A DNA stretch of 64,000 bases from Clitopilus passeckerianus (lineage: Eukaryota; Basidiomycota; Agaricomycetes; Agaricales; Entolomataceae): NCBI GenBank assembly GCA_944990035.1, contig CALYLX010000106.1, positions 186,001-250,000 on the forward strand. Reading direction: 5' to 3'. The notes beneath the pieces are model-generated. The model ran no database searches. It saw nothing but the letters and a program-made list of their open reading frames with translations, and was not told where the DNA came from. The first letter of the stretch is position 1. Every line of letters starts with the position of its first letter. Made by a program: the position numbers and the translations under genes. This document shows, piece by piece, positions 2,576 through 32,211 of the stretch.

Positions 2576-5500
2576 TCACTCGATGAACCTGAGGACGGAC
2601 TTCTTTGTTTTCGAGATAGGAGAGATCACGATGTGTTCTTGAGTCGGAATTCTAGTGCAGCGATTTCCGTCCATACTGAGCAAGATAGCCAAAGTACGTG
2701 ATTCGTCGGCCAACTCGGTTAGAACGGCAATCCCTAGATGATCATAACCCCCTAAACCCTTAGACACTACAGTGACCTCCTGGTCCAGCCCCGTCAATCC
2801 CAACTGAGATTCCTCCATTCCCAGTTCGGCTTCAACGATTTTCTGAACCCGAAGGGTCGCAGCGTAAACCACCAAAGGAATGCGCAGTCCTTTGTTCGTG
2901 AGCATATAGGCTTCATCGGTAGAGTGGGCTTTATCCCATGTAAAATTAGTGTCCTTCGGTGGCTTGGTTGCGAGGGGCTGTAGCGGAAGTGGGGAGAAGC
3001 AAGTCGCATCGGCTGCGAGCATACTATTGACTGGAGAAGGGTGTCCCTTCCAGGCTAATAAGCCCATGTCGCCGCTGCGCTGGAGAATCTCTACCTGTAG
3101 TCGATGGAATGCCATAACCCCTTCGCTGTAAGCGATCGACATGGGGATCTGCAGTACACCAATCAGGCAATACGCCATGTCCTCGGTTCTGGTGGTTTGC
3201 CTCTTCGAAATCCACATGAGAGCATTTCTGGCATGATTGACACCAGCAGTAAAGTTGAGAAGTTGATAGGCGTCGATCCCTGTGATTTTAGCGATTGTTT
3301 TCCAGAGAGGAATACCCAGGACGTCATCAGGGAGTTTGTCATTTCCCTCTGTGTTACTGGTGATGCGGCGCCAGGATTTCCCAAAGAAGAGTATTCTTCT
3401 TGGAGCCAAGAGCTCCTGTAGCGTCCAACCTCTTGTAAACCATGGATCGCGTCTGAGGGTCTGAGAACTGGCAGTCTCAGCGAGGTGGACGATGCAAATA
3501 TCAGCGTCGCGATACCAGTTGAACATAGATCTGATGGACTCCTCGAGCTCGGCACTCCTGCTCTTGTCGATGCAGCCAGTGTCAAACCAGACGAATTGGC
3601 AGCCATATTGCGATGAGATGTCACAGAATTCCACGAGTTTGACTAGATCCTGGCAATGGCCCCGTTGCTCGTATGATAGCCCATCGCAGAATGCCTTCAT
3701 TCCTTTCAGCAACGCCAAACCCTCCTCCGCCTTCTCCATAGAAGCATCACAGGCTAAGAAGTCCAGGATCTCTCTACCCGTTCGTTTGGTTACGCGATCA
3801 TTTGTGAGCTTGCGAAATCCGGCCACGGAAAGATCCTCGAGCTTCAACACATCCTGGTAGGTCAATTCACCCATCTCAAGCCACCTATGAGAAAAAATTG
3901 CATATCGTGTCTTAGCGGTAATCCATTTCCTTGTATGAGCCCTAATATCATCCCGAGTTAGATCAATCCACTTCGAGCTGTCATGAGAAGGTAAAAGCCC
4001 GTCAATAAACAAAACGATGGCGCCTTCCATGAAACCTTTGACTGCACCCCTCCGGACAAGCTTCATGCCTTCAAGCTTGAGAAGATATATTGGAAGTTGG
4101 TTGTGAATGTACTCATCAACGACGTTATGAATGGCTTAGTTAAGGAAATTCAATATCAATTCATATTTCAGAAGAGAAATAAACAGACTTTTGATATAGG
4201 AGCCCTTTAAAGAAGAAAATAAGGGGATGTAGTTTTGAGAGTATATGCAAAGCCTTCAATTGAAGTACGTACCCTCTAGAGCACGCATAAAGGGATTGAC
4301 AGAGATAAATGAGGATTATAGACAAACTTACTTGCTGAAGATGAGGTTAGCGAGCAAATAGGCAACACTAGATGGTCCACTTACTATCTGAAGACGAGAT
4401 CAGCCAGCAAATTGAAAAAAAAAAAAACTGTATGATTGACTTACTTCCTGAAGGCAAGATCGGGGAGCGAATTGACAACGATAAATATTCACTTACGCGC
4501 TGAAAATAAGATCAGCGGGAGAGTGCTCAACACTGGATGATGAGTCACTTGCTGCCTGAGGAAACATCAACAAGCGAATCAACAACGCAGGATGGTGATT
4601 CACCTACTGCCTGAGGACAAGATAGGGGAGCAAATCCACAGCACTGAGTGATTGACTTACTGCCTGAGGACAAGATTAGCAAACAAATCTACAATGCTGG
4701 ATAATTGGCTTACTTCCTAAAGGCGAGCTCAGCGAGCAAATTGATAATGTTAGAAGATTGGCCTACCCGCTGAAAACGAGATCAGCGAGCGAACCAACAA
4801 AGCTGGATCATTCACTTACTGCCTGAAGACAAGATCAGTGAGCCAATGGACAACGCAGGATGATGCAATTACCATCTGAAGACAAGTCCAGGGAGCGAAT
4901 TGACAACAGTAGATGATATATTTACTTTCTGAAGACTAGGTCAGCAAAGCAAATATACAACTCTAGATGCTTCACTTACCAACTGAAGACGAGCTCAGCG
5001 AGAGCCAATTGACCAAGCTGTATGATTCACTCACTTTCTGAAGAGGAGGTCAGCAAGCAAATTGACAACACTGGATGGTTTACTTACTTTCTGAAGGTGA
5101 GATAAGCGAGTGAATCGAAAAATCTGGATGGTTCACTTACGACCTGAAGATAAGCTCAGCAAGTGAATTTACGACACCGGATGGCTAACTTACTTTCTGA
5201 AGGTGAGATCAGAGAGCAAATGGATAACACTGCGTGGTATATTTACTTTCTGAACGCGAGCTCAACGAATGTATAGACAACGCTGGATGATTCACTTACT
5301 GCCTGGATACGAGGTCAACAAGCAAATTGGAGAAGCTGGATGGTTCACTTACTTTCTAAAGAGAAGGTCAGTGGGCAAACTGAAAACGCCGGATGGCTCA
5401 CTAACTTTCTGAAGGCAAGATAACGAGCGAGTTGACAACACTAGATGATTCACTTACTTCCTGGAGGCAAAATTAGCGAACAAGTTGGCAATACTAGGTG

Positions 5501-6793
5501 ATTCACTTACTTCCTGAAGCTGATCTCAGCGAGCAAATTGACAATTCTGGATGATTCACTTACCCGCTGAGGAGCAGCTCAGCAAGCAGATTAACAATGC
5601 AGGATGATTCACTTGCCCACTGAGGACGAGATCAGTGAGCGATTTCACAACGCTAGATGGTTCTCTTACTTCCTGAAGACAAGGTCGGCGAGTCAATTAA
5701 CAAGACTGGATTATTTACTTACCCACTGAAGACGAGGTCAGCAAACAAATCGACAACGCTTGGCGTCACTTACCAACTGAAGGCGAGATCAGCGAGAAAA
5801 TTGACAAACATGCATGAATGACTTACCTGCTAAAGACAATCTCAGCAAGCAAATCGACAACCCTAGATGATTCACTTACCAGCTGAAAAATAAATTAGCG
5901 CCGAGCGCATTGATGTCACTGAAGGATTCGCTTACATCCTGAACACGATATCAGTGAGCAAACGGAGAAGAACCAAATAGTTATATACCAGCTCAAGAGA
6001 GCTCAGAGAGCAAATCGACGAAGCTAGACGATCCACTTACTTCCTGACGACGAACTCATAAAACAAATTGAAAACCCTAGATGATTCACTTACTTCCTGA
6101 AGACGAGATCAATGAGTGTATCGACAGTGCTGGATGACTCACTTACCCGCTGAAGACGATGTTTGTGAATGAATGGATAACACTGGACGATTCTCTTACC
6201 TCCTGAAGACGAGATCAGCAAAAGGAGGTGGAATCCAATCATTCACATACTGCCTGAAGGCAAGATTAGTGAATGCATATGATATTTCCACCTTACATAC
6301 TTTCTGAATACGGCCCAATAGCGCATGCATTCAGGCGGTAGAATACAATCATGTGTTGACCTTACTCACATCCTGTTGGTACAAGCAGTTATATCGTATC
6401 CATCTGGCCGTTTTCCCGGTGAATTGGGATTCCACGCACCCACTTTGACCCGCCGCAATGAATAGTTCATCTCCACCTCATTATTGTTAAAGGCGTCACT
6501 TACATCCTAATGCGCCCAACCGTGTAAGATGTTGAGAATAAGATACCTTTCTCTTGGAGAATGATCACTCACGATCTGTAGGGTTGCCGGCCCAACTGTG
6601 GTTAATGGATGCTCATAGATCGTATCTTATAGAGTTGACATACTTCCAGTTCCTGCGAACCAATATCGAATTAGCAATGAAACACTAAGCAACCATTTTT
6701 CAGCCCATACATGGCTAGCAGGTTGCTCCGTATCCACCTGATATTGACATCACGAGCAGTTCATGCAACAGCACTATTCATTCCACTCACCAT
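2576..6793 (-). CDS. HET-domain protein with 5' one-codon exon array
   Basis: The last exon (4134 down to 2576) encodes a HET (heterokaryon incompatibility) domain, the family whose members trigger fungal cell death after non-self contact. Motifs in order: RYAIFSHRW, then FVWFDTGCIDK followed by ELEESIRSMFNWYRDAD, then WFTRGWTLQELLAP, then RTEDMAYCLIGVL. The frame stays open upstream of the first internal ATG (4064-4066) to an acceptor at 4135-4136. Beyond it lie a 16-base exon (4189-4204), 42 three-base exons, a 9-base exon (6644-6652), a 27-base exon (6711-6737) and a possible start ATG (6791-6793) set directly against a GTGAGT donor. All junctions are in phase. The model has 47 exons and about 579 residues. 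The HET call is firm. The micro-exon part rests on splice signals and phase, with no transcript evidence. The exact start and the 16-base exon (donor GTCTGT is weak) are the least certain parts. Confidence 0.75.
4273..6575 (-). repeat. Array of 42 one-codon exons separated by repeated short introns
   Basis: Read on the minus strand, each unit is a donor (usually GTAAGTGA), about 30 variable bases, a CTGAT-like branch site, TCTTCAG, and then a three-base exon. 25 of the 41 exon-to-exon spacings are exactly 53 bases. Most others are 50-60, and three at the 5' end are 69, 134 and 69. All length changes fall inside introns; the exon is always three bases. All acceptors are AG. Donors are GT except two GC donors (after the exons at 4553 and 5617). 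Low coordinate of each triplet: Lys 6301, 5406, 5353, 5247, 5194, 5088, 5035, 4926; Glu 6200, 6094, 6041, 5670, 5511, 5458, 4714, 4445; Ala 6251, 5300, 4820, 4661, 4608, 4553; Arg 6147, 5564, 4767, 4497, 4273; Leu 5989, 5880, 5774, 4980; Asp 6504, 6370, 5936; Trp 5723, 5617; Ile 6573, 4385; Gln 5827, 4332; Val 5141; Met 4873. Confidence 0.85.
6644..6793 (-). other. 5' leader exons of the HET gene
   Basis: Three small exons are proposed upstream of the codon array. ATG at 6791-6793 abuts a GTGAGT donor. A 53-base intron leads to a 27-base exon at 6711-6737 (V D T E Q P A S H), then a 58-base intron (GTATGG to CGCAG) to a 9-base exon at 6644-6652 (E L E), then a 68-base intron to the first three-base exon at 6573. 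Intron lengths fit the rest of the gene and all phases are zero. The ATG exon could extend further 5' or another ATG could be used (one sits at 6709-6711 in a different arrangement), so the start is tentative. Confidence 0.45.
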
Positions 6794-27204: not shown

Positions 27205-30002
27205 ATACCGTGTTTCTATTTGTATCCAGTTAGTATGATAATTTGGCATCAGTTTGTCGAGGAAACCATTGATTTGGAGAGCCAAAGAGAACTTGTGAGT
27301 AGACAATCAACTGCACCAGTGCATGCATTGATTTGGAATCCGAAAGCCGAGCAGGCCTGGGACACGTTCAAGCGCTGAAGAGGTGAGCAGCGGCTAGATA
27401 AGATAGCGAGAGTCGAGCTAACCCAACCTCACTAACAACTAAAACCACAACTCACAACTCCGAATTCGTGGGCCTCGTGTAGAATAGCACTCTGTACACC
27501 GAAATACCCTTAGGTAGCGATGAACAATGTAAATGTGTGTGCGAAAATTGAATATCTTTCAATTGAATCCCTCAGTAATCAACTGATCACAAAACTAATA
27601 TAAGTCTCGAGATCAAAGGCTTCGCACAGTCTCCAAATCTAAGTAACACACCCGCAGTTGTGATACCGAATCTGGGCTATCGAATACTTGAATTACGCGC
27701 AATGTACTACCTACAACTTTTATACTACAAAGAACTCTGCACGGACCATATAAAATTAAACATCTTGGCATTCGGAAACTTTGGCGGCCTTTCTTATATG
27801 TTAGGAAAGGTGCGGAAATAGTTTATGAGAGGTCCAGAATGACGTGCTCTCGAAAACTTGGAAAAATATTCAAAGTTCCAACGTTGAATAGTAGATGCGA
27901 CTGGACTTTGCCGGTCGGTCCGTGAAGTCGATTGATCTCCGACACGCGTCCGGGCGAATGGGAAGCTGCCCATCAGTCGGAGCTCGAATCCGCCCCACAA
28001 TGGTCTTCATTCTCGTCGACATTGTTCTGCATTCCAGGGAATTCCGTTTACTTTCAAACCACTCGTAGTAGGTAGATAACAACAGTATGTATTCATTAAA
28101 ATCATTAAATTTCAAGCGCATCATCATGCGTTGCATCCGGGACGGGACGGCGACATTAATTCGGCAGTGCGGTCCTAGTACCCGAAAACCGAGAAGTCAG
28201 AAATTATACCACACTAGGACACGCTGCCATACCAAATTCTGTCCTAAAACCGTGCACTCGCGAGTTATCCAGATCCTAAAGTGAGTACGGAAGTTGTGAT
28301 AGAGTGGGGCACCATTGAATCCCCGCTTGATTGAAGATGCCGGATGCAAGCCTATTGGCCGCACCCCGAACGGCCGACCCCGCCGACAGGTCAATCAATA
28401 TCAATATTCCGGTGAAGCCTCAGATCGAACAAGAATTCGGTTGGATTGTGCTGCTTGCCCAGTGATGAACGGCGCGGGAAATGAACTGAAAGTGCGTGCT
28501 CGACAACAACTCACACACGCACACTAACTAACCCAAAACTCACGGCCTCTCAAGGGTTCGTGGGGCTTGGAACAATCGAATAACACTCCTCAACCCTTAG
28601 GTAGAGTCGTATATAGATAGTTTGATTGCTTGTGTAGCGTAGAATTTGAATTCGAAGTTTTTATATTCAAAGAACAACAAATCTGCGCGCACGCAAATGG
28701 GATCCCTCAGGAAATACTCAAGACCAAAGAACCCGCAGTTTCTAAGGTCGAAGCACACGCCAATCGTTTAGATACGCTCGCAAACGCTCTGAATTGAGAT
28801 CTAACGAATACTTGCTTTTTCTAGGTAGGAAATAGTACAGTACTTATACAAAATGCGAATGGTCCGTGCCCTGTCTGCTATAGAATATTCTCGAACGTGA
28901 TAGCTATTTTTAATATGCCAAGGGTATGAACTAGCGAATGAGAACTCGTCGAGAGGTGTACCATATGGAAACGATCGAGAATTGGGAGAGAAAGTGTTGT
29001 GCATAATTCTGCCAGAACTCTCCACCCAAATATCTCGTTCGCTATTGGTTGGTCACTCGAAATCTGACCAAGCTTATGCTTGGTATGCGTTCCCGAGTAC
29101 TTGGAACCACGCGATTCCTTGTCTATATTTTCGTTGTGGAGGAATCCTCCTTCGACGATTGGACAACCTCGACGATAGATGACTTTGCCGGGCTCGGCAA
29201 GTTTGCGATCAAGGTACCGAGGTTGTTCTAAGAATATCCCGCTCAGACATTGCCCCTGCCGAGATCGGGTCGTCATCGGATTCGTCGGACTTCGAGTCTT
29301 TGCGCGCAGGAGTGCCAATCCTGTACCTCCTCGGTGGACGAGTACTGATGTTGCCAATGCGGCGTATCCCTGTTTCTGATACCGTCGCTCGAGTTTACAC
29401 CGTTAAGGGTCCCTCGTTGGTTCATAGCTACTCTTACTAGGTAACCGGAGCTCATTCCTAGTCTTAGGTTTCCCGTGTATTAGGTAGAGAAATACAGATA
29501 AAATCGACAAAACAATCGAAAATAAATGTATTCACGGCTGGGCCGTGTCACCAGCGTCGAATATGTAACATAGACTTACATCAGAGCTTCATTATAGAAT
29601 ATATCACACTTAAACCGTATATAAGGTCAAACCGCAGGCAAATCTAGCATATTGAAAAAGTCAGACGACGCTCGAAAGATCGGTAGGCTTTTCTACGTAT
29701 TCTATGGTCAAACCAACATCTGGAGTTGAACCTCACATTCCAGACGAGATCTTCCCTTTTGGGTGGAAGGAGTGGAGCTAAAAAGAGCTGCATTTTGCCT
29801 CTAACCAGTTTCTGTCCTCATCTGCTCTCTGTATAAAGGTGCACTAGGGATGGTGAGTAATCGAATATTTGAAAACGGTCGTTGTATGACAGCCGTTCTT
29901 ACAGTCCTCGACCGTACACGAGAAAAACACATTGGGGCGGCTGATATCCCTCCCCCTCCGACCAACAGCTCGCCCATGAGCTTGTGTGTGGAAGTGGTAA
30001 AA
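27205..30002. other. Repeat-rich intergenic DNA
   Basis: No gene is supported. Two diverged direct copies are visible at about 27415-27700 and 28500-28800 (shared tracts: CTAACCCAA/ACTCACAAC, CGTGGGxCT-xGxAGAATA, CCCTTAGGTAG, CCCGCAGTT). They may be old solo LTRs or another element. A plus-strand stretch at 29200-29440 reads LRISRSDIAPAEIGSSSD and AGVPILYLLGGRVLM with stops nearby and could be a retroelement remnant. I could not name it. Confidence 0.35.
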
Positions 30003-30074
30003 GGGTGCCATGACGGGGGCCGAACTCTTGAGTCCAAAAATGACTGACCGCGTCAAAACCACTAGACTAAACGG
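30003..30074 (-). ncRNA. tRNA-derived sequence (possible SINE head)
   Basis: The minus strand reads GCCGTTTAGTCTAGTGGTTT and continues with a possible anticodon arm (AGTC, seven-base loop, GACT) and a weak B box (GAGTTCGGCCC) about 35 bases downstream of the A box (TAGTCTAGTGG). The 3' acceptor strand does not pair with the 5' end, so this is not a working tRNA. The downstream minus-strand tract to about 29840 could be the body of a SINE. Only one copy is visible here, so the class is uncertain. Confidence 0.35.
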
Positions 30075-30911
30075 CCTTTGATTTCCTACCTTTTTGGGTC
30101 TTATGAAGTTACTACACCAAGTAGCAATATAATGCCGAAATCCTGGCCCTCCGCATTGTAATAGGGGTCAGCTGCGTACTAGGGGAGTATTTCTAGTGTG
30201 ATGCGGTATCTGAAATAGGACATCTAGATGATACTATAACGCCATTTTCCTATAATTGCTAGGTGTATTACAAAACTGCTATACGGACTCCTCCCCCTCG
30301 TCGCACGGACTTCCCATGACTGCCTCCGGCATGTAAAGCTCAGCAAATGACGGGGGTGTAGTTGCGTTTTGGCCGGATTTACCGAGTGGACCATCCCTTC
30401 AAGAGAAGGAAAGCCCGTGCGGTACGAGATAATTCATACAGGAACACGGAGTGGCATTTTATTCAGTGCTGATGTTGATTGGATGTTAGTGTATGACAGG
30501 CCAGCCTTTCATTCGCCTTCAAGGTCTCGATGTGATCAAATACATCGACAAGACCAGTATCTAGTACAACTTTCTGCCAAGCCGATGCTCATGATTGGAG
30601 GCCGATTCCAGAACAACTTTCTCAGCGACATGCCTCGGAGATCAATCGCAATGATCTCCTGTGTATCTTGGCTTCTTACCATTCCAAGTGTGACGAGAAG
30701 AAGTTGTCATGAGAAAACATCAAATCTGACCGAGTTCGTTGAAACTCATATACCCCTTCTCCGATTTGTACCTGACTGCGGTAGTCTTAACGGAAGCGGT
30801 TCTTCAGTCATTGCTGATAACACAATTACCCATCATCTTTACCCTCTATAACTTATAAGTTGTCCCCCGGATAAGCTCTCCAGCTAAAACACTACCCATT
30901 TACGTAGGACG
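30075..30911. other. Intergenic, with the right copy of a duplicated upstream segment
   Basis: 30515-30680 matches 25560-25730. An open plus frame (30369-30851) crosses it but has no domain and is not conserved as a frame in the other copy, so I treat it as non-coding. Confidence 0.45.
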
Positions 30912-32211
30912 ATGGATACGGACGTGATCTATTTCCTCCAAAGAAATGCAGAAATAACCATTCCAAGCAACGTAGTGATTGCTATCCTCACTTCTATTCT
31001 CTATGGTGAGTTTTTTTCGTTGCGTTTTCGACATCGGGTCTTACCAGTTCTACTCAAGGGATGAGTCTTCCAGTGTTTGTGTGGTCGATGAGAATCAATT
31101 GGTCGGTGCACAGATGTCGAATCGAAACGCGCTTACAGGCGGTCAAGGATGCGTGGTTTTGGATCCCCAGTTTTGATAGCCACCGCAGGCGCTACTCTTT
31201 TGTGTTTTATTCTCATAACCCTGGACACGGTAGCAACCATATCTGAGTGCCAACCCGTGTTGACGATCCTTCTTGCATTTAACCAAAGCGGCAAACCAAC
31301 TATCCCCGAGGTGATCGAAGCCTCCAACAGAGAGATGTTCGTACCAGATGTCGTTCGGAATTGGTCGCAGAATATTCTTGTCGGTCCTTTCTGCACATCC
31401 TTGGCTTTCTTTCCCTCACCTTTTTCTGCGTTTAGGTTGGGCTCAGTGATGGGATCATAATTTGGAGGACATCAGTAATCTTCCCCGACTATCCATGGAT
31501 GCTCCATCTCTTGGCATTGTTATGGGTGGCATATGCTGGTGAGCTGAACCGTCTTATCGACGTGGAACCCATTTTTATTTCGTCTTCCTGTCCTTTAGCA
31601 ACAGTAATCGCTCTAAGTGTCCTCTGCTCATCGTACACAACGTGGCTTCAGTGGCAGCCCGAAGCTGATTCATATTCTATCCTGAAACGTCTAAACGAGG
31701 CATCCAACTACTTGTCTCTCACCGTAAACTTCTTAGCAACACTTCTCATCTTGCATGGCCTATGGTAATTAGCGTAGCCAGGTGTCAGATTTCCACGGTG
31801 TACTAACCCCAATTCAAGGAGATACAGGCGCTCTTTCTTTGCCTCCACTTCTTTCCATAATTCCACTGGCCAGAAGATACTCACAGTTCTTGTCGACACA
31901 GGGCTTGTTTTCTGTTGCTTGCAGGCAAGTCTTCATTTACCAAAGAAGCACTTAATCCCTGAATGGTGCCATAGATGATTACCTTTGTACTACAGCAGTT
32001 GAATGATAGTGGTATCATTTCGTTGACTCTTTCGTCTATATTAGCGTTGAATGCATTTTATTGCATGGTTTACGCATTTAGTGTGAGTGGTAATGAAGCG
32101 CCCCTAGTTTTTACTAACACAGCTCTCAACGTTTAGGGTGTATACCCGGCTATTGTCGGTATCCTTGCGCACTCCCAAAGGCGCAAAGATTTAGTATACG
32201 GTAGCTTCTAG
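30912..32211 (+). CDS. Multi-pass membrane protein, copy 2
   Basis: Paralogue of 25926-27204. Exon 1 is 30912 to about 31003 (starts with YFLQRNAEITIPSN, then VVIAILTSILYG, donor GTGAGT). Later parts: MSLPVFVWSMRINWSV, AGATLLCFILITLDTVATIS, NWSQNIL joined to VGLSDGIIIWRTSVIFPDY, LLALLWVAYAG, YSILKRLNEASNYLSLTVNF, RRSFFASTSFHNSTGQKIL with LVDTGLVFCCLQ (GC donor), ISLTLSSILALNAFYC, and a tail GVYPAIVGILAHSQRR ending at TAG 32209-32211. A one-base frame change lies between FWIP and VLIATAG (about 31168) with no intron there, so either the model is wrong or this copy has a frameshift. Function unknown; predicted integral membrane. Confidence 0.5.

Follow-up and report, generated by a model that had tools for sequence, protein, structure and literature searches.

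Upstream of an exon with a HET (heterokaryon-incompatibility) domain, the minus strand of the DNA analysed here (the window, a stretch of 64,000 nucleotides from Clitopilus passeckerianus) carries a long row of triplets, each enclosed between an acceptor-like AG and a donor-like GT or GC. The question raised by this locus is whether such triplets are exons of a single codon or the letters of a repeat that is never translated. In the reading preferred here, to which a probability of roughly 0.86 is given, the array is made of tandem units, an intron-like stretch plus a triplet, whose triplets splicing is predicted to join one at a time into the N-terminus of a HET protein, translation as the predicted one-codon exons being the likeliest fate of the triplets. 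If the predicted splicing is right, up to 95 one-codon exons follow one another, and we know of no denser intron runs than these arrays.

Predicted exons of the window gene

The predicted gene comprises 48 exons and 580 codons without an internal stop, in the order ATG, a 27-nt exon, a 9-nt exon, 43 one-codon exons, a 16-nt exon and the HET-domain exon. Its 47 introns are 47 to 68 nt long (median 50), a length not divisible by 3 in 40 of the 47 cases; every acceptor is AG and the donors are GT (45) or GC (2). The features of the gene are the following.

6791..6793, minus strand: coding part of exon 1, the start codon ATG only, with a GTGAGT donor directly after it
6711..6737, minus strand: exon 2, 27 nt, VDTEQPASH, comparable with paralogues C155_1, C106_3 and C155_4
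6644..6652, minus strand: exon 3, 9 nt, ELE (the three paralogues just named have RLE or RME)
4273..6575, minus strand: array of 43 predicted one-codon exons, each unit an AG, 3 nt and GT or GC
Array triplets 1-9 (first base, minus strand): 6575 ATC, 6506 GAT, 6442 TGG, 6372 GAT, 6303 AAA, 6253 GCA, 6202 GAG, 6149 CGG, 6096 GAA
Array triplets 10-18 (first base, minus strand): 6043 GAA, 5991 CTG, 5938 GAT, 5882 CTG, 5829 CAG, 5776 TTG, 5725 TGG, 5672 GAA, 5619 TGG
Array triplets 19-27 (first base, minus strand): 5566 CGG, 5513 GAA, 5460 GAA, 5408 AAA, 5355 AAA, 5302 GCA, 5249 AAA, 5196 AAA, 5143 GTC
Array triplets 28-36 (first base, minus strand): 5090 AAA, 5037 AAA, 4982 TTG, 4928 AAA, 4875 ATG, 4822 GCA, 4769 CGG, 4716 GAA, 4663 GCA
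Array triplets 37-43 (first base, minus strand): 4610 GCA, 4555 GCA, 4499 CGC, 4447 GAA, 4387 ATA, 4334 CAA, 4275 AGG
4428..6219, minus strand: tandem repeat of period 53 (one codon with its intron of about 50 nt), in two overlapping rows (27.3 copies and 30.6 copies) with 67% matches
4189..4204, minus strand: exon 47, 16 nt, GSYIK plus 1 nt, with a weak donor GTCTGT
2576..4134, minus strand: exon 48, the last exon, with the HET domain, ending at TGA (tblastn relatives and Pfam)
3458..3625, minus strand: Pfam HET domain, PF06985, E 1.4e-8

Since the ATG (6793-6791) directly abuts its donor, the first coding exon is also a single codon, and GTGAGT, GTGAGC or GTGGGT stands directly after the ATG upstream of nine of the ten C106/C155 arrays (in C106_5 it was not recognised). 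Exon 2 has counterparts reading ADTEQLTSH (C155_1), ADTDQPTSH (C106_3) and ADTEQPTSH (C155_4), and the donor position of exon 47 is occupied by GTAAGT, GTATGT or GTACGT in nine C106/C155 paralogues. An earlier note on this DNA had described 42 such units; the run itself stands, with the count corrected to 43, as its 134-base gap contains an overlooked unit (AAAG, TGG, GTGCGT; triplet 6442-6440). TGG is also the third one-codon exon in paralogues, within F-D-W (C155_1) or F-I-W (C106_3, C155_4). The two GC donors that the note reported are present and follow the triplets starting at 5619 and 4555. The peptide predicted from the 43 array codons is IDWDKAEREELDLQLWEWREEKKAKKVKKLKMAREAAAREIQR. The strict branch motif CTRAY was found in only 19 of the 43 array introns and a looser set in 33.

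The HET match scored 35.6 bits against a gathering cut-off of 22.5, which identifies a HET-domain protein, and tblastn relatives on C106 and C155 were matched over 495-496 residues in one piece. The Pfam scan of the 496-aa frame found HET only, with no NACHT, NB-ARC or WD40/ANK/TPR; an NCBIfam scan of the frame gave no match, and no relative of the HET protein was found among viral contigs. Pfam returned only sub-threshold matches for six spliced N-terminal segments. Because a protein database search with the spliced segment of C155_1 gave no relative up to E 10 (181 candidates) and most of the 14 relatives read begin near the HET exon, gene predictors are expected to miss the N-terminal array segments.

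Three-base units across the genome

The motif CAGNNNGTRAGT has 24 matches in the window, 23 of them in the array, against a shuffle mean of 0.93 and a maximum of 4 in 100 shuffles; the window array is therefore not due to chance. Exon lengths of 1-12 were tried in 20 gene regions. Runs appeared at length 3 alone, with 7-50 consecutive units in the 19 regions where this rule gave an array; other lengths reached 3 in a row at most, and on the reverse strand a run at length 3 never exceeded 1. An open search over exon lengths 1-60 picked a longer exon at seven places in 6 of 18 arrays (C101 aside), one of the seven being the genuine exon 3 (9 nt) in the window gene. Genome-wide, the strict tandem pattern occurred 176 times with a 3-nt exon and not once with 4 or 6 nt; the reversed control gave one chance match, and in viral contigs five stretches had one match each, an array being found in none.

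The window gene was presented in the earlier note as a single case; the gene is upheld and is here extended to a family. In the same genome, arrays were found in 20 of the 21 HET loci whose upstream DNA was read, the C113 locus being without one, and at least 19 further copies with one-codon runs exist besides the window gene. Array size ranges from about 12 to 95 consecutive units; with alleles counted, the arrays are spread over at least eight contigs, and a HET exon lies downstream of each array read. The same one-codon design is built with two intron lengths, of about 50 and about 66 nt, which have the donor GTAAGTGAATC in common. In the distant member C101/C98, whose HET is 46% identical, one-codon exons lie between quite different introns and the triplets are identical in 13 of 13 cases by eye; the C101 exons are partly longer (6, 9, 11 and 17 nt, by eye), and the open 1-60 search did not settle C101. 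The HET frame is apparently broken in at least two members, C106_5 and C97:349k.

The introns within one array resemble one another, those of C34_1 and C36_1 being alike. This resemblance, together with the donor shared by both intron families, would be expected if introner-like elements had inserted side by side in waves and had left 3 nt between them by chance. Introners spread to many genes, an introner element being recognised as near-identical introns in many unrelated genes, whereas all 176 strict pairs lie within stretches around these HET genes and a 328-base array query, with which single intron copies elsewhere were sought, matched C106 and C155 only among the matches listed (at least 11 candidates scored). 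Moreover, independent insertions would not give exactly 3 nt every time, and such an origin is judged highly unlikely. A dispersed element near window 30232-30295 was considered as a possible introner and rejected, as intron borders were not seen.

Constraint on the triplets

In form, the arrays are head-to-tail minisatellites, of period 53 in the window and of period 69 elsewhere. Such periodicity, like the similar introns of C34_1 and C36_1, is what a neutral satellite in one long intron would display, with splice-like letters kept by descent, the array skipped and the triplets untranslated. Against this, no stop codon occurs among 769 triplets from 19 arrays, where 44.8 were expected from column frequencies. 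These triplets use 59 of the 61 sense codons and 104 begin with T; of the 43 window triplets, the search behind the set recovered 39, and the remaining four are sense codons.

Haplotype comparison bears on the same alternative. Two pairs, C97_329/C157_534 (48 units) and C106_3/C155_4 (30 units), were compared with units called in one haplotype alone, and in the other haplotype all 78 units are ungapped and bordered by AG and by GT or GC. Triplet substitutions at codon positions 1, 2 and 3 number 0, 0 and 5, all five synonymous; positions 1 and 2 are thus unchanged at 156 sites, against 8.0-10.2% difference outside the triplets, and each of the 78 gap columns falls outside the units (triplet plus splice dinucleotides). 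In a wider set of 82 units with AG and GT/GC in both haplotypes, positions 1 and 2 changed at 1 of 164 sites versus 344 of 3664 in introns (Fisher p 4e-6), with five synonymous changes and one nonsynonymous, the latter in a C97/C157 unit that can be placed two ways (CAT/TAT versus GTA). At sequence level, purifying selection on the amino acids encoded by the predicted codons is demonstrated in the two haplotype pairs. This codon-level constraint sets the arrays apart from a minisatellite without a coding role and makes the neutral satellite very unlikely. The proposal of the earlier note, a protein segment to which each array exon before the HET exon adds one codon, gains support from the stop-free triplets, the 580-codon frame and the synonymous-only changes.

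The C106_1/C155_1 alignment (42 paired units, 34 nonsynonymous and 0 synonymous changes) was dropped as selection evidence, since array lengths differ in this first gene of the two haplotypes (43 versus 95 units) and a one-to-one pairing of the units is not possible. In the second window piece checked between haplotypes (30000-31500), the C155 match covered only 576 bases at 70%. In young arrays, triplets are far more variable than introns, as in C106_4/C155_5, with 12 of 36 triplet sites changed versus 43 of 398 intron sites (p 6e-4). In C34_1, also young, the closest unit pairs carry the same triplet (2 of 2) and there is an association between codon type and intron similarity, indicating that some of the variation simply stems from the duplication of units.

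At least for the 69-base arrays, translation could also be imagined without any intron, as a protein of 23-residue repeats with one hypervariable residue. C34_1 and C36_1 are indeed open in the array direction for 250-310 codons (partial arrays only), because 69 is 3 x 23, but their opposite strand is open as well (180-258 codons). Intron lengths that are not multiples of 3 (32 of 37 counted in the window, 70 of 70 in C155_2) and in-frame stops in 12 of the 43 window array introns argue against this protein, as do the diverged 69-type introns, in which the frame is broken (15/71 in C36_2, 23/80 in C157_562, 35/46 in C97_329) while the triplets of these arrays are still stop-free. An intronless repeat protein is consequently considered extremely unlikely.

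Proposed mechanism and known systems

Under the preferred reading of one-codon exons, splicing would be stepwise, each ligation lengthening the growing exon by one codon, with the next donor thereby reaching its edge; this order is proposed because two spliceosomes could hardly hold, at the same time, an acceptor and a donor separated by only 3 nt. In human cells, the exon junction complex represses donors near a fresh junction (excerpts of PMC6224609), so that chained splicing would require weak repression here. Unequal exchange or slippage would gain or lose whole units and, as one unit is exactly one codon, the protein segment could lengthen or shorten by single amino acids with the reading frame intact and splicing unharmed. 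The triplet would be the part of the unit free to diversify, allowing the segment to change quickly in length and residue. The N-terminal segment would likely be the recognition or partner-binding part controlling the HET cell-death domain in nonself recognition; from the HET domain and by analogy, we infer that the arrays may serve as the fast-evolving N-terminal segment of HET incompatibility proteins.

The array units are all symmetrical and, within an array, the introns resemble one another; pairing of a donor with an acceptor further on would therefore keep the frame. The one-codon exons could then be real and yet mostly optional, with units skipped at random, giving mixed N-terminal variants per gene, much as the small symmetrical exons of schistosomes give pools of similar proteins (PMC4350168, in part). 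The residue-by-residue conservation of the two haplotype pairs argues that each codon matters in place, at least there, and optional use on this scale appears rather unlikely. A bolder view, held tentatively and at somewhat under even odds, is that of a codon tape, an intron-plus-codon satellite that the spliceosome would read codon by codon, with unequal exchange editing single residues and occasional unit skipping creating a per-cell ensemble of variants. The introns would then form a scaffold that removes itself and lets single codons be inserted, deleted or shuffled without harm, a mode of protein sequence evolution that we know from no other gene.

If the one-codon exons are real, it becomes a puzzle how a spliceosome copes, dozens of times per transcript, with a donor lying 3 nt from an acceptor, and the arrays would offer natural substrates on which to test how short an exon can be and in what order splicing proceeds. 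They would also represent a new route of protein evolution, with an intron plus one codon as the duplication unit, and would provide HET proteins of this fungus with fast-evolving N-terminal segments.

Among the papers listed by searches of open-access PMC, none dealt with runs of one-codon exons. There is a likeness to the schistosome micro-exon genes (MEGs), described in excerpts of PMC4350168 as having many consecutive very small symmetrical exons that are alternatively spliced. In contrast, the fungal arrays have exactly one codon per exon, form a tandem repeat of intron plus codon, reach runs of 95 and encode an N-terminal segment only, before a large HET exon; in MEGs most of the coding region lies in very small symmetrical exons, whereas in the window gene, symmetrical as its array exons are, all small exons together amount to about 61 of 580 codons. 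That a 3-nt exon can be spliced in is indicated by the single micro-exons of Drosophila homothorax and troponin T and of mouse and rat NCAM (PMC7392893, in part), which are isolated, whereas here tens occur in succession without a larger exon between. The authors of the Trichoderma Xlr2 study called functional microexons previously undescribed in filamentous fungi (PMC11121469, in part); theirs is likewise a fungal microexon, but a single one in a transcription factor gene, not an array.

Ratchet points leave no residue, AG directly abutting GT, whereas here 3 nt remain between acceptor and donor, as in every unit of the window model, and are under selection as codons, and runs appear only at 3 among lengths 1-12. 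Recursive splicing through RS-exons and ratchet points resembles the proposed mechanism in its stepwise passage through sites at which the first step leaves a new donor on or close to the junction (excerpts of PMC6224609).

With HET-D, HET-E and HET-R, the arrays share a HET domain and alike repeats with hypervariable positions; in those proteins, according to excerpts of PMC4986451, the repeats are homogenised by concerted evolution, have hypervariable positively selected positions and are protein repeats (WD40, with ANK and TPR in other NLRs) of proteins with NACHT. The HET frame of the window falls outside such fungal NLRs, which combine NACHT or NB-ARC with WD40, ANK or TPR, and here the alike part is the intron, the hypervariable part being a single codon N-terminal of HET.

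Predicted exon structure of the window gene and exon length

The one-codon exons of the minus-strand HET-domain gene, sought as AG-NNN-G(T/C) on the minus strand of 6575-4273, were placed within the following predicted gene model:

6793-6791, minus, exon consisting of the start codon ATG (gene model)
6737-6711, minus, 27-nt exon (gene model)
6652-6644, minus, 9-nt exon (gene model)
6575 to 4273, minus, 43 one-codon exons (AG-NNN-G(T/C) search)
4204-4189, minus, 16-nt exon (gene model)
4134-2576, minus, HET exon (gene model)

The run of one-codon exons described in the earlier note was thus recovered, with its count corrected from 42 to 43 by a TGG codon at 6442, inside the 134-base spacing, which paralogues carry in the same position. 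The model has 47 introns of 47-68 nt (median 50), each closing with an AG acceptor, their donors being 45 GT and 2 GC, and the predicted coding sequence of 1743 nt contains no internal stop. The motif CAGNNNGTRAGT matches the window 24 times (0.93 expected), 23 of these matches lying in the array.

When consecutive exons of fixed lengths 1-12 were searched with generic splice rules in 20 gene regions, runs arose at exon length 3 only (7-50 units in the 19 array-bearing regions); the other lengths never gave more than three consecutive exons, and length 3 on the reverse strand gave at most one. A strict tandem pattern (TCAG-NNN-GTAAGT with CAG-NNN-GTAAGT 32-60 bases further on) was found 176 times genome-wide with three bases (reversed control 0), and not once genome-wide with four (reversed control 1) or six. 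On recount, all 176 matches fall in stretches around the HET genes, and the strict form is therefore found nowhere else in the part of the genome open to the search. A GTACGT variant of the pattern occurs 75 times, on contigs C36, C97, C155 and C157.

The gene family in the assembly

In the 64.8 Mb assembly, the array used as query matched contig C155 and further sites on C106, the contig of the window (C106:186001-250000), and a profile scan with window units followed by chaining located arrays 5' of five HET exons on each of these contigs. The pattern search added C34 and C36, whose period-69 units (introns of about 66 nt, again one codon) also sit upstream of HET exons. The HET protein as query gave 27 matches, counted as 24 loci. 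Upstream DNA was examined at 21 of them (C106 x5, C155 x5, C34 x2, C36 x2, C157 x3, C97 x1, C101, part of C98, and C113), the C13 and C26 loci lying outside this survey, and one-codon exons were present at 20 of the 21, many of which are haplotype partners of each other. They were absent from the 2.6 kb examined upstream of the C113 locus. An array is also present at C97:349k, by pattern matches only. The longest array, C155_1, has 95 units; C157_534, C157_552 and C97_329 were examined over 4 kb only.

The closest named relative of the HET frame is from Flammula alnicola (51%) and that of another window gene from Tephrocybe rancida (66% over 76%), both Agaricomycetes, which makes a mushroom-group fungus the probable source of the window. 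Two HET copies with arrays upstream, C106:161171-162646 and C97:348132-349633, have internal stops or a split frame and may be pseudogenes. Separately, window 30232-30295 contains a dispersed element roughly 63 bases long, in which no intron borders were seen on inspection; partial copies of it (82-88% identity) lie on more than 15 other contigs.

Evidence bearing on whether the triplets are codons

Among 769 triplets of 19 arrays, from chains picked by splice score alone, no stop was found, whereas independent column frequencies predict 44.8; these triplets comprise 59 different codons and 104 start with T. Without the two young arrays, C34_1 and C36_1, the count is 0 of 678 against 34.3 expected.

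Since an otherwise single-copy window gene recurs at a second place on C155, in opposite orientation, C106 and C155 appear to be two haplotypes; a different piece of the window has only a partial match on C155. The two contigs are strongly diverged (82% identity in the otherwise single-copy gene, 88-91% over portions of the HET cluster). Judging from the arrays alone, C97 and C157 appear to form another such pair. For two pairs alignable unit by unit, unit calling used only one haplotype, and the called units were then located in the other. All 48 units of C97_329 were retained in C157_534 and all 30 of C106_3 in C155_4, ungapped and with AG and GT or GC. Triplet substitutions at codon positions 1, 2 and 3 numbered 0, 0, 3 and 0, 0, 2 respectively, all synonymous, while the remaining positions differed at 296 of 2900 (25 gap columns) and 119 of 1492 (53 gap columns). 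Starting from the other haplotype (47 and 30 units) gave identical triplet changes.

In a broader set of 82 units, for which both haplotypes had to show AG and GT or GC, five synonymous changes and one nonsynonymous were counted; with 18.5% of random single changes to these codons expected to be synonymous, five of six has p 0.001. First and second positions differed at 1 of 164 sites versus 344 of 3664 in introns (Fisher p 4e-6); third positions, at 5 of 82, showed no significant difference from introns (p 0.44).

The distant members C101 and C98, whose HET is 46% identical to that of the window gene, carry one-codon exons together with some longer ones, and their introns do not resemble those of other arrays. 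Where the two were compared, 13 of 13 one-codon exons were identical by eye and the introns differed in places, so that the one-codon design likely predates the introns as they now stand. Exon sizes are mixed in both (3 and, by eye, 6, 9, 11 and 17 nt), an organisation which is possibly the ancestral state preceding satellite-like amplification. On the comparative evidence, it is hard to escape the conclusion that the triplets are translated; all 43 window triplets may be joined in each mRNA.

Diversification, encoded peptides and possible role

Young arrays show the reverse of this conservation. In 20 unit pairs of C34_1 with 3-5 differences among the 132 sites of their two flanking introns, the fraction of differing sites was 0.317 for triplets versus 0.035 for the flanks; in 14 pairs from 13 of the 40 units of C36_1, which form a run of exact period, it was 0.667 versus 0.034. 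Triplets are identical in the two closest C34_1 pairs, and C34_1 introns are more alike between units sharing a codon than between units with different codons (p 0.004 upstream, 0.029 downstream), so that units spread by duplication with triplets diversifying on top. C34_1 builds its 50 units from six codons that encode six different residues, and C36_1 its 40 from eight. Between the presumed partners C106_4 and C155_5, 12 of 12 units persist, with changes at 12 of 36 triplet sites versus 43 of 398 intron sites (p 6e-4; 4 nonsynonymous and 2 synonymous triplet changes), and the first genes of the two haplotypes have 43 units (window gene) versus 95 (C155_1). Arrays are thus hypervariable in some genes and conserved in others. 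The triplet hypervariability is likely due to diversifying selection; gene conversion homogenising the introns only is a possible cause. On either strand, the young 69-base arrays (C34:55321-58702 and C36:368445-365750) give an open frame of 23-codon repeats, which gene-prediction software may take for repeat proteins.

E, R, K and L make up 417 of the 769 residues of the predicted peptides, which look helical or coiled-coil-like by eye; the exceptions are C36_2, with much P and G, and the beginning of C155_2 (GGRDITHHIGGTTIINHIG). No Pfam cut-off is reached by any of the six segments tested, and no relative of the C155_1 segment was found in the protein database. The first 28 one-codon exons of C155_2 (C155:279017-280500) encode DFHDSVIAGGRDITHHIGGTTIINHIGS, which is rich in G, I, T and H, imperfectly repetitive and reminiscent of fungal amyloid signalling motifs.

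Unit anatomy and codon-level selection are visible in the sequence. To judge from the geometry, splicing would proceed stepwise along the array. Since the exon junction complex is described as repressing donors near a fresh junction in human cells (PMC6224609), such repression would have to be weak in this fungus. A unit duplicated in any phase would again give an intron plus one codon, so that arrays could grow without frameshift.

In the open-access literature searched (PMC), no run of one-codon exons was found. Isolated 3-nt exons (PMC7392893) and schistosome MEGs (PMC4350168) are known, and a report on one fungal microexon calls functional microexons previously undescribed in filamentous fungi (PMC11121469). 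The array genes may act in nonself recognition, as their HET domain, their clustering (five in a row on C106 and five on C155), their haplotype divergence and their likeness to WD40-repeat HET genes suggest. HET is described as a cell-death effector domain in Podospora, and the WD40-repeat HET genes as combining concerted evolution with hypervariable positions (PMC4986451).
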